Source: Hirudinaria manillensis (taxonomy: Eukaryota > Annelida > Clitellata > Hirudinida > Hirudinidae). Taken from it: a stretch of DNA of 64,000 nt. The stretch spans positions 8,171,278 to 8,235,277 of the forward strand of contig CM067538.1 of assembly GCA_034509925.1 (NCBI GenBank), given 5' to 3'. Every line of letters starts with the position of its first letter. Within the stretch, counting starts at the first letter, position 1. A program made the translations under genes and the position numbers. The notes beneath the pieces were generated by a model. The model did no database searches. It had not been told where the DNA came from and saw only the letters and a list, made by a program, of their open reading frames with translations. This document shows, one piece after another, positions 17,306-26,300 of the stretch.

Positions 17306-20300
17306 TCAAAATTTATCTGACCGAGAGGTCTTGCTATCCTGTTCGTCGGATTGTTTGATCGCCTCCATGTAAAGCTCTTCCAAGTGCGGATGTTGAGACA
17401 CGATTGCATCGGCTGATTTGTTGTTGTTCTCGTCATCTTCGTCGCTTTCCAGTCCCTCGATTTGTACCACAGTGAACGAAGTCTTTTTCTCCTGGCCGTT
17501 CTCCGTGAGGGATTCACGTGACTCACGATCTTCGCTTTCGACGGGACTGTGTTCGGCTTCAGTGGACGAAGCTTCTTCTTCTCTGATGGTCTCCATCTGC
17601 ATCTTTCTGATCCTGGTTACTGCAGGCAGTTCTATGACCGCCTCGTCTTTTGCATCGTTGTTTCCGTCCGACCCGTCATTCTGAGCCACCACGACTCCCA
17701 ATACGCTTCCTTCTTCGACAGAAAATCTCCTCGACATTCTCCTGCCTCCCAGCTGGCCACCAGAATACACCCTCGGAATTCCAGACCCCGGACCGTTATC
17801 CTCTGGAATTTCTTGGCCGATCAATTTCTCGAGTTTTTCCTATTGAGAAAAGGCGCTTATTAAGGTTTTCATGACATTCAATAATGCTAGCTATTTTATC
17901 AGAGGCGATAAGCTAATAGTAATGGTGGAGTTTGATTGATGTCCTCTGCAAATGTGTAAAAGACGTTTTTGGACAGCGATTATCAGATTAAATAGCTTTT
18001 TGGTTGAACTGCCGACTGTTACGCACGAATAACTCTTAATTACAGCTATATTTCAGCTCTTTTATAATCTTTATTTAATTTTACATTTAATTATTCAATA
18101 GATTAAAATATTTGATATTCAGTAATTGGTGTAAAATATAAAGTATCATCGTGATCAAAGATTGAAATTTAATGACAAACCTGCATATTGAATTGCATGA
18201 GATCCTTCCTCGTGATCATGCCAACGGGTCTGTTTCTATTGTCGGTTACGAGCAGTTGCCTCAGTCCCATGGTTCTGAAGAGTCTGTAAGTTCTCATCAG
18301 CGAATAGTTTTGGTCGACTTTCGTTAATGACATGTTGACGTACAATTCCTAAAGAATTCAAATCGATAAGAAACTCAATTATTTTGTTTTTAATTGTATT
18401 TAGTTTTCTTTGCCACTTAAGTCGACGTTTTGGTTGCCTTTTCCGTGGCGTAATAACAGATATTTTCACACACAAAAAAAATAAAACCAAACCAAATTAA
18501 TTCTCGTGTTAATGTCCTTCTTCATAGTGTAGGACCTCAAGATTTCCAATATTCTATCAATATTGTGAGATCCGTCATTTTCCATCTGTAAAGGTGTGAT
18601 GATGACGATTATGTAGTATTAATAAGTGTTCACCTTTAATCATCAATTGCATTAAATATAATAATAATAATAATAACAACAACATTTTGTCAATCAAGTA
18701 CGTACATCCTCGTAGGCAATCTTTGGATCGATGATGGCGTCTGATGACGTGTTCTCGTGGTAGACCCTATATACTTCTTCGTTGCTCAGTATGGAGTACA
18801 ATTCGTTTCTAATTAGAAATTAATTAGTTTTATTTAATTTTAATTCATTTTTGTCAACAACTCCATAAACATTTCAACCTCGTAATCATTCCATACACGA
18901 TTTCGAATTTCGCGTCATCGTCGTATTTGACGACCGGAAAACCGTTGTGCTTGGTTTCCAATAGCAACTTGGAAACTTTGTGAACGCTGACCGCTAAGTT
19001 TATGGTGTGGATCGGTGAAGCCATGACGTCCCTGGCTCTCCACAGTTCCATGTTGAGGCTGGAATAATTCGTCGTTAAGTTCATTAAACTTTTCCGATTC
19101 GATTTTATAGATTTTATACATTTTTTGTTTGCTTTTACACTCCATTCAACTGCCAACATGCAAACGGTTTTGAATCTTCACAACAACTCGATAGTTTTTT
19201 TTCTCTGCTGAGATTTTCCAAAAGCGAAAGCTAAAGTTACTCACATTTTTCCGTGAACCACGAGTTCAGGTTCAGTGTCGAGGAAAGGAAGAGCTTTCCC
19301 TTCCAGTTGGTACTTGTACAGTGGCTTCGACAACTTGCCAGCGATTGTTTTCGACACGAAGATTGCGATCAAAACTGGAAGGACCAGGTTAATGTCTCCC
19401 ACCATTTCTACCTGAAGTCGTTAAAATACCGTGCTTAGTAATAATGATAATAACAATAATAATAATAATAATAATTAAAAAAATAATGATAATAACAATA
19501 ATAATAATAATAATTAAAAAAATAATGATAATAATAATAACAAACTTGCCACAATGATTTGCACATATTTACTTATAGAGAAACGTTTAACATATTTCGC
19601 AGAGGAGCACCGACCAAAATGACAGTGGACGCCACTTCCAATCTGTTGACCCCACTGAGGAGAGCCCCCGCACCAACGGCTGCCATTACTCCGGGATCGA
19701 TCCAAGCCCAGATTCCGCTGGGCACGGGATTTCCTATGGTCGCCCTGTACGCATAAACGAAGCCTATTCCGAGAGCACGCCCAATCAAGCTGCCGGAAAT
19801 TCTAGAAATATATTTAATTGAAAATTTATAAAATTCAATCCATCAAAATTAATTAAATAATTAATATATATTTTTTTTGGTGAAGTTAATCGATTAAGAC
19901 TCACAAGATCGGTACGAATATTCCACCGGCTATAGCACTCCCTGCCGTCCAAATGGTCAGGGGGAAATAAAAAGCAAAGGCACTCAGGCAGACCCCGTAG
20001 TCGAATAAATCGAAAGTGTTTCTCGACCACAACGAGTCCATGTAAGCTTGACCGCCAGCCTGAATTAGGGAGGCCACTGAAGATCAAGGTGTAGAAAGTA
20101 TTACATAAGAAATCTTTCTAAGTTTTCTTGGAGATTTTGTGAACGATGGCAGCTAAGTTCGTCGTCGTGATGATGTGATCGATGAAAGTATATGATGATT
20201 GTCTGGGTGATTGTATGGGGTGATTCGATTATAAAGACTCACAAACTTCAAATGTGGACCTACTTGGGTTGTAATAGATGTCGCTTTGGTTTGGATAGTT

Positions 20301-23300: not shown

Positions 23301-26300
23301 TGACATCTTAAAATCTCAAAAATACCGTCGAGCTCGTAAATTATTCACGTCCCTGCTGAGGGCATTGGCCCACCGACCTTAGGTTCTAATGATTATCAAG
23401 ACTGCTAATATATTCTCGTGGACCTGGCGAGGGCTCTTAGATGGTTCTTGCAGTCGTTCGATTAAACACTCATTACAGTCGTCCTTGCCTAATGGTCGGC
23501 TGATTGGAAATTCAACGTTCGATGCTTTGGTTTCAAATGGATGTGTGGCCAATCAATTTTCATGCTCGTAAATGAAAAAAAAAATCTTTACACGCTTTTT
23601 ATCTTGTAAACGATTATACGCCACTTTGCCGAGAGCAACTTTGAAGAAATTCTGCTGCTGATATTTCTAAGCAAGTTTTAGATTGGATTTTGTCCACGTT
23701 ACTAATTTTAATTATTTGCTCATCGTCACTTTATACATTCATGAAAGTTTTTCACAAAAAAGTGAACTACGTCCATGTTCTACTCGCAGTTTCCACACAG
23801 AGAATTCGTCGGAGTTGATTATAATAGCTAAAGTATGGATTCTTTTAACTCACCCGTAAGTGATTAGAGGGCCTTGGACGGCAGCGGGCAGTCCGCTACC
23901 CACGGCTAAGACGTTGGCACTGAATTTGGTCAATAAATTTTTTACAGAGAGGGTTCCGTGAACTCTTATCCCATTCAAAAAAGCGATGATCTCTGGAGCA
24001 CCGCCCCCTGCGGCCATTGGATGAAACATCTAAGAAAATTGAAGGTTTTATTGGTCCTTTGAACTTGTCGTGGGCGTGATTGATATTATTTAACGGAAGT
24101 TTATTTACAGTTGCGAATTGTGTTAAAAATAAGCTAGTAAATATGAAGAATACATTCAAAGGTAGAAGTGAAGATTATGAGGGACCGTGCTTCTTCGGTA
24201 GCACAATGTTTACAAATAAATAATAATCATAATATTCGACAAAAATTTATTCAAACCGTGACGAGAATGGCGCCGACAAAGACCATGATTGCATTGGTGC
24301 CCGCTAAATAGGCATAGCCGACAGCTAAGGAATCCTCCTGTAATAAGAAATGAAACGTTTATAACGTTGCTATTTAATATTGAACGCGAATTAACATTTG
24401 ATTTTATTTAGAAACCCGAGGTTTTCATCACTTACTTAGAATAGGTCAACTTAGATTAGGTCAACTAATATTTATATATAATATAATATTAATTACATAA
24501 TTATATAATGTTTATTAATTATAATTAACAACCTCAATAAGTACGATCATCGATTCACACGCACGACGTCACCTTTATTAAACATTGAAGCAGTATTGCA
24601 AGAGTTGCAAGAGTTGCAAGATCGAAAGACAAGTCACTCGTAAACCAAAAGAACCCACCTTCGTGTAACTCCTGACCAATTTCCACTGGACTTTGTTCAA
24701 TGCCTGAATGCATTGTTTCAGGAGGGTGGCCACCAATCCCACCAAAACTCCAATTAGGGAAATCAAGAACCAACGGTCGATGTCCAGGCGGGATATCCAA
24801 CTGTATGTAGGTGTTCATAATTAAGAATTATTCAAATAAGTATCACGTATTATTATTATTATTATTATTATTATTATTATTATTATTATTATTATTATTA
24901 TTTATCATTATAGAATAATTACGATTGTGACAATTTTGCTAAGTGAATGATATTTTATAAAAATATTCTGATCAATGATGACTTTTTTTAAAGATTAAAT
25001 CTCAATTTATTACTATTAATTGTAGACTAGGAATAGAATCTACTGACTTGGCCCTGTGGATCTTCATCCATCTGACGTACGTAATACTGTGGGCAGGCAT
25101 GTAATTGGCACTGCTGTAGGCCCTCAGGGTTCTTTTCTGCTGCTCGCTGAACTTCTGGTGGGAAATTTCCGAGTGGAATGTGCTCAACTGCTTCTGCCAT
25201 TTTGGTCTTCTAGTCTTCTTTGCTTCTCTCTGAGTCGATGACGTTAGGAGAATTATTAACATTTAAATTATTAACATTTAAATTATTAACATTTAAATTA
25301 TTAACATTTAAATTATTAACACTTAAATTATTAACATTTAAATTATTAAAATTTAAATTATTAACATTTAAATTATTAAAATTTAAATTATTAACATTTA
25401 AATTTTTTAAATTTAAATTATTAACATTTAAATTATTAACATTTAAATTATTAAAATTTAAATTATTAAAATTTATTATAATTCTATTTTATCGTGTAAT
25501 TATTTGATCCTTTATCGAAGTCATTTCTAAGTCACAACGTGAATTGTCAAGAACTTGTTTTCATTTCATCTCGAGGATCAACAGTCTAAGGAGCGTTAGA
25601 ATTTTATTATTTATTAATGATATTAAATAATTATAAATTAATATTTTTATTAGTAATATTAATTAATTAATTATTATAGGAAAGCAGTGCAACACGTGTT
25701 GTCCTAATAATAGGAACAACAATTAAGCATAAACGACATGAATTTTAAGTTAATGTATGTAAAGTAACTGATAATTTGTTAACATTATTTGATTATAATA
25801 ATTATTATTTATTATATTTACTAATATCCACTTATAATTATTATATTTATTAATATCCACTTATAATAATAATAATTATTATTTATAGCAAATAATCACT
25901 GAAAAATTGAAGTTCTTTGTTTGTTCAACAAACTTGAACCTTACAAAGTTCAGAAGGGATGGTTTGAAATTGCCAAGAAAAAATAATTAGCTGATGATGA
26001 TGATGATGATTATTATTATTATTATTATTATTATTATTATTTTTATGTTAACGTTATCATGACGATTTTTCTCAATAAAGTCACAAAAACTCGAAGGGAG
26101 GTTCTATGTAAAAAAGAATGTCCAGCTGAGAATAGGTGAGTCTGTAATAAAATTCTTTAATATTTTAATACTTACAAAGCGTTTATTTCATTTATTTATG
26201 AAAACATAATTCGTTGAATTATTTACGTTAAATAATGTTAAATTATAAATAATGTTAAATTACCAAACGAGGTAAGGATTTGCACCTGTTTTTTATTTGG

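Follow-up and report, generated by a model that had tools for sequence, protein, structure and literature searches.

Can a CLC protein whose gating glutamate has been replaced still carry anions, and if so in what manner? The question is raised by a CLC gene in the 64,000-nucleotide stretch of Hirudinaria manillensis DNA analysed here (the window; positions 8171278-8235277 of contig C13, in a genome of 148.4 Mb and 23 contigs). A sequence-only reading of the window had described the product as a protein of CLC-6/7 type in which every canonical residue of the anion pathway is lost. We find an intact reading frame, substitutions at several but not all of these residues, including Gln for the gating Glu, and kinship with one other gene of the same genome, here called C4. 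The chances seem to us about evenly balanced that the window protein is a functional CLC-6/7-like member that conducts anions across intracellular membranes through a constitutively open pore, uncoupled from protons.

The pathway residues were read from an alignment of 12 CLCs, comprising the window protein, five paralogues from the same genome (C1, C2, C4, C5 and C6a), human CLC-7, CLC-6, CLC-3 and CLC-2, plant CLC-a and ClC-ec1, whose numbering is used throughout. At position 107 the window protein has Gly, where 10 of the 12 have Ser and the plant protein has Pro, and at position 109 it has Ala, where the other 11 have Ile. At the gate, position 148, it has Gln, with Glu in 10 sequences and Val in C6a, and at position 203 it has Asp, with Glu in 8 and other residues in three sequences of CLC-1/2 type. 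The canonical GSGIP is thus GGGAP in the window protein (23994-24008; this and all other parts of the gene are on the minus strand) and the canonical G(K/R)EGP is AVQGP (23868-23882). Both are in exon 5 (23854-24029) and their codons read plainly as GGGGGCGGTGCTCCA and GCCGTCCAAGGCCCT. In exon 7 (22422-22647) the sequence FAMEDLSSFW, with AMED within 22551-22571, retains E202 and has the conservative change of E203 to Asp. All of these changes had been described correctly in the sequence-only reading.

That reading also had the central Tyr changed to Ile, and here we disagree. It had taken position 419, which lies in NYQLILP of ClC-ec1 and DINLVLP of the window protein, and is Tyr in ClC-ec1 alone. 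When checked on the whole ClC-ec1 sequence the central Tyr is Y445, in KPLYSAIL (M425+20), and this position is Tyr in all 12 sequences, the window protein having it in KPLYKYQ (19307-19327). DINLVLP and KPLYKYQ are both in exon 13 (19245-19411). The window protein also retains GIFVP (19910-19924) in exon 11 (19905-20076), including G355, F357 and P359, and it retains G106, G108, P110, G149 and P150. The more general claim that every canonical residue is lost therefore fails, because the protein still has the Tyr, GIFVP and E202, the first Glu of the E-E pair, and because the change to Asp is conservative.

The protein belongs to the CLC family and has the regulatory domains of a eukaryotic CLC. 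The Voltage_CLC domain (PF00654) is found at residues 268-717 with 217.5 bits (curated cut-off 24.8; E 3.6e-64), and there are two C-terminal CBS stretches (PF00571; E 2.4e-14), as well as the central Tyr and the GxFxP motif expected of the family. The best solved relatives in the PDB are human CLC-7 (E 4.4e-90) and CLC-6 (E 3.7e-75), followed by plant CLC-a (E 7.8e-67), which bears out the earlier assignment to the CLC-6/7 type. The entire architecture is common to the window protein and human CLC-6 and CLC-7, and the sequence GAG..QFQS is common to it and CLC-6. Identity to these two human proteins is 32.0% and 31.5%, and they have the Ser, gating Glu and proton Glu that the window protein does not. 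With regard to the residues that mark exchangers, the protonatable gating Glu is replaced by Gln, and the inner proton Glu by Asp, which is still dissociable; the inner dissociable residue is described as absent in a few CLC exchangers (PMC3519907).

An alternative exon with a canonical gate would change this picture, and we reject it for the window, where searches turned up no such exon. The motif G[KRP]EG[PS] was not found in the six unspliced frames of the window, a search that would miss a motif interrupted by an intron, as it is in C1. The looser [ILMV].EGP has two matches in the window, both outside the gene (13922 and 43255), and when exons 5 and 6 of C4 were used as query against the window, only exons 5 and 6 of the window gene were below E 1.

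The closest relative of the window gene is C4 (locus L009, minus strand, on the contig of that name). The two proteins are identical at 248 of 592 columns (41.9%), in a C4 model that was guided by the window protein and is unreliable in loops and at its ends, against 177-189 identical of 581-591 columns for the window protein with CLC-6, CLC-7 and C1. Of 16 comparable introns in the window gene, 12 match a C4 intron in phase and, to within 2 columns, in position, introns 2/3 and 9/10 have same-phase C4 introns 3 and 6 columns away, and introns 14/15 and 17/18 have no counterpart in this C4 model, whereas only 1 of 16 is shared with C1, the CLC-7 gene. An insertion of 7 residues before CBS1 is present in the window protein and C4 only, among the 8 metazoan and plant sequences that cover the place; CLC-7, CLC-6, the plant protein, CLC-3, C1 and C2 have homologous sequence there and lack it. 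C4 has the motifs SSGIP, GPEGP, MEE and GVLVP, in which the gate is kept and G106S and F357L are changes.

We made three trees, the first with LG+G4+F on 12 sequences and 319 columns, the second with LG+C20+G4 on 12 sequences and the third with 8 sequences and 592 columns, after dropping columns with letters in fewer than 9 of 12 sequences (first two trees) or 5 of 6 (third). Badly modelled parts of the C2, C5 and C6a sequences were removed by hand prior to alignment, human reference segments are partial where the HMMER alignments were partial, and C6b, a partial model with its front half missing, was used neither in the alignment nor in the trees. Few sequences were compared, with two human members of the CLC-6 and CLC-7 groups and invertebrate sequences from this genome only. 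The window protein and C4 are sisters with support (Shimodaira-Hasegawa-like approximate likelihood ratio test/bootstrap) of 87.8/88 in the first tree and 76.1/80 in the second, which has very long branches, and in the 8-sequence tree they are split from the rest at 100/100. In all three trees the pair falls outside CLC-6, CLC-7 and C1, which are joined by a node with support of 96.4/95, 88/71 and 87.5/49, the last with the plant sequence inside. For the deeper placement of the pair the first tree gives support of 34.6/49, and the position of the plant sequence varies from tree to tree; on the sequences compared, the pair may be an animal subfamily in its own right or a CLC-6 lineage that has evolved fast. 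The branch to the window protein is 0.84 against 0.36 for C4 in the first tree, 2.50 against 0.49 in the second and 0.90 against 0.57 in the third.

The window gene and C4 thus probably arose by an old duplication, and C4 keeps a canonical gate. As far as can be seen in this one genome, the AVQGP/GGGAP signature is private to the faster-evolving window copy, since its closest paralogue keeps the gating Glu, and the signature is found in none of the 5 other modelled CLCs of the genome (C6b is not modelled in this region). A search of the genome with the core of the window found no recent duplicate, the best match outside the gene itself among the best 24 candidates being C4, at 46% identity.

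The gene does not look like a pseudogene, as the sequence-only reading had concluded. It has a stop-free frame over 1107 codons, and neither a stop nor a frameshift was found in the exon model. In simulations of random substitution (10 per level, without insertions or deletions) an amino acid change of 5% brought on average 3.9 stops and a change of 50% brought 26.2, and so the gene appears to have been under constraint for most of its history. Seven sequences taken as exchangers agree at 35 positions, and of these invariant residues 29 are retained by the window protein and 32 by C4. The six losses in the window protein are I109A, E148Q, A189G, E203D, a gap at L238 in common with C4, and T416V.

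The mechanism that we propose starts from the gate. With Gln in place of Glu there would be no charged side chain to close the pore and no proton hand-over, and the open pore would give a passive, uncoupled anion conductance, making the protein a natural counterpart of laboratory E-to-Q mutants. That a Gln gate predicts proton uncoupling had been suggested earlier for this gene, and is backed by the passages on gating in PMC5362633 and PMC7253180. E148Q is described as mimicking protonation, abolishing gating and leaving passive Cl- conduction, and gating-Glu mutants of CLC-5 and CLC-7 as conducting without proton coupling (PMC5362633), while in E148Q of CLC-ec1 the Gln side chain is said to shift up, out of the anion path (PMC7253180). 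Replacement of the gating Glu by a non-protonatable group is reported to abolish H+ transport (PMC3519907). In CLC-5 and CLC-7 a neutralised inner Glu is also reported to abolish transport (PMC5362633, PMC7253180, PMC3519907), and in this the window protein should differ from the mutants, having Asp at the inner site. An open, uncoupled conductance is thus to be expected because the gate is Gln and the inner site is Asp and not neutral. The retained central Tyr and GIFVP would still build the central site, the changes of Ser to Gly and Ile to Ala would alter selectivity, and the CBS domains would regulate the conductance. The gene is presumably expressed, and the location of the protein is most likely in intracellular (endo-lysosomal) membranes, to judge from its kinship with CLC-6/7.

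There are several points that weigh against this proposal. Conduction could also suffer from having Gly and Ala in the central-site motif. The losses at invariant positions are 3 of 13 in pathway motifs and 3 of 22 elsewhere (Fisher p 0.65), which gives no statistical indication that change was aimed at the pore in particular. In the 228 columns where human CLC-6, CLC-7 and C1 agree, the window protein has 41 private changes against 12 for C4 (p 8e-5). General relaxation fits about as well as targeting of the pore, because the losses are not concentrated in pathway motifs and the gene has evolved faster than C4. The gene might also be a recently relaxed duplicate heading to loss, with its frame intact and no present function, and the loss of function may have come late on the window branch. 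The longer branch in each of the three trees and the excess of private changes, with losses spread evenly and not only in the pore, are in keeping with this, but all 1107 codons and 17 introns of the model are free of stops, frameshifts and broken splice sites, and the CBS domains and 29 of the 35 invariant positions have been retained, so that we think decay of this kind unlikely.

The main rival is that the protein is a non-conducting or modulatory subunit, altering the trafficking or gating of the C4 exchanger or of CLC-7 by forming dimers with it. CLC proteins are dimers, the gate-keeping sister is in the same genome, three substitutions lie near the central and external anion sites, and the protein has long divergent cytosolic tails as well as CBS domains. 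However a dead scaffold need not have retained the central Tyr, GIFVP and most of the invariant positions, and gating-Glu mutants of several CLCs are reported still to conduct (PMC5362633); we regard a subunit role as possible but rather doubtful. It is very improbable that the protein is still a coupled exchanger in which another group stands in for the gating Glu. The Asp at the inner site is dissociable, and a dissociable group is what this site is described as supplying (PMC3519907), but the gate is Gln, and it is a non-protonatable gate that the same paper describes as abolishing H+ transport.

An open, uncoupled conductance would not be the first CLC conductance without a gating Glu. CLC-K proteins lack it (V166 in bovine CLC-K) and are described as largely open (PMC5362633). 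CLC-Ka and CLC-Kb thus resemble the window protein in the natural absence of the gating Glu, but they have Val at the gate and not Gln, and are channels of CLC-1/2 type that need barttin. Another precedent is TbVCL2 of Trypanosoma brucei, a CLC-6/7-like protein with CBS domains that is reported to lack the consensus Ser, gating Glu and proton Glu, and also the Tyr that the window protein retains, and which is from a protist (PMC5731698). Of 29 oocytes injected with it, 97% showed outward-rectifying Cl- currents, but it failed to rescue the gef1 mutant of yeast, and its authors state that dimers with oocyte CLCs could not be excluded (PMC5731698). It has therefore already been published that a CLC-6/7-like protein can lack these residues. 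The same change of gate from Glu to Gln is present in laboratory E148Q CLC-ec1 and in the E211Q Dent's disease allele of CLC-5 (PMC5362633), but these are engineered or disease alleles and not a normal gene, and the GSGIP of CLC-ec1 is canonical where the window protein has GGGAP. In the literature searched we found no natural Gln gate in an animal CLC-6/7-type protein, which is weak evidence of absence, nothing on E203D, and no annelid CLC study among the matches listed.

It is a standing question why endo-lysosomes use Cl-/H+ exchange rather than a plain Cl- conductance, and it has been probed with engineered uncoupled mice (PMC5362633). If our proposal is right, a natural animal protein with the exact uncoupling substitution, beside a gated sister, is a ready experiment, although the impact is tempered by the gate-less CLCs already known (CLC-K, TbVCL2). 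A further and quite tentative suggestion, which we would ourselves rate as somewhat improbable, is that C4 and the window gene represent a third animal subfamily of CLC-6/7 type, separate from CLC-6 and CLC-7, in which one member has become a gated exchanger and the other a natural E-to-Q ungated organellar anion channel, the two perhaps forming heterodimers. The uncoupled CLC-7 mouse of the laboratory would then have a counterpart in nature in this pair.

The remaining CLC genes were located by a PF00654 profile search, in which the best candidates scored gave 16 exon matches, on contigs C1, C2, C4, C5, C6 and C13. By spliced alignment C1 is of CLC-7 type and C2 of CLC-3/5 type (best PDB match CLC-3), both being canonical at positions 107, 148, 203 and 445, and the genes on C5 and C6 are of CLC-1/2 types, C6a having CLC-2 as best PDB match and C6b being a second such gene on C6, recovered in part. 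C6a (L011, plus strand) reads GKV-GP for GKE-GP, with a GTGAGT donor directly after the GTT codon at an exon end near L011:2844, and has Ala for the inner Glu; it thus seems to be a second CLC in this genome without the gating Glu, with Val as in CLC-K. A possible further CLC at C1:8694019 (E 0.03) was rejected, as spliced alignment gave unrelated sequence, judged by eye. There are three OSTM1-like exon matches in the genome.

The window gene as a whole runs from 17306 to 27888, start to stop codon, in 18 coding exons that join in frame to give 1107 amino acids and a stop, with all 17 introns GT-AG, phases that agree and no internal stops. The span of 19245-24029 given previously takes in exons 5-13, and holds for these but not for the whole gene. 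The exon model was assembled by hand, guided by CLC homology. Exon 1 (27469-27888), with the predicted start ATGGAA, encodes the cytosolic N-terminal tail, and is followed by exon 2 (25048-25229), exon 3 with the first membrane helices (24659-24800) and exon 4 (24257-24337). Between the motif-bearing exons are exon 6 (23029-23121), exon 8 (21398-21592), exon 9 (20591-20688), exon 10 (20243-20349) and exon 12 (19615-19801), the last with a GTCGGT donor preferred to the neighbouring GTGCTC to maintain the frame. CBS1 begins in exon 14 (18879-19058), followed by exon 15 (18706-18808) and exon 16 (18493-18585), whose weak donor GTTTGG was also picked for the frame and is the boundary of lowest certainty. 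CBS2 is in exon 17 (18181-18348), and exon 18 (17306-17839) has the acidic cytosolic C-terminal tail and the stop. The only literal GSGIP in the window is in this tail (17774-17788), the motif being absent from the pore of the protein, and is probably a coincidence.

Elsewhere in the window there are a leucine-rich-repeat protein, protein kinase and PKK-domain exons, which we take to be perhaps one kinase of SLK/LOK type, and an exon at the Pfam cut-off for the sodium/bile acid symporter family; together these neighbours are at 34061-36103 (minus strand) and 37000-37545, 41988-42374 and 48034-48615 (plus strand). An open frame of 600 amino acids at 13391-15190 (plus strand) has no Pfam match at E 0.01. 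Two abutting tandem arrays occupy 38460-40261, with 50 copies of a 24-mer and 23 of a 26-mer that are 97-98% alike, and the 24-mer array is open for about 400 codons on both strands. Outside the window, a COX1 match at C9:3026446-3027786 equals the mitochondrial contig C23 in score and stop count, and is either mitochondrial DNA recently copied into the nucleus or a fault of the assembly. In the readable part of C23 the order is cox1, cox2, cox3, tRNA-Gln, nad6 and cob (protein genes named by eye, with an unassigned stretch after cox2 and before cox3), with AGR fitting Ser, and this order fits what we take to be the annelid ground pattern.

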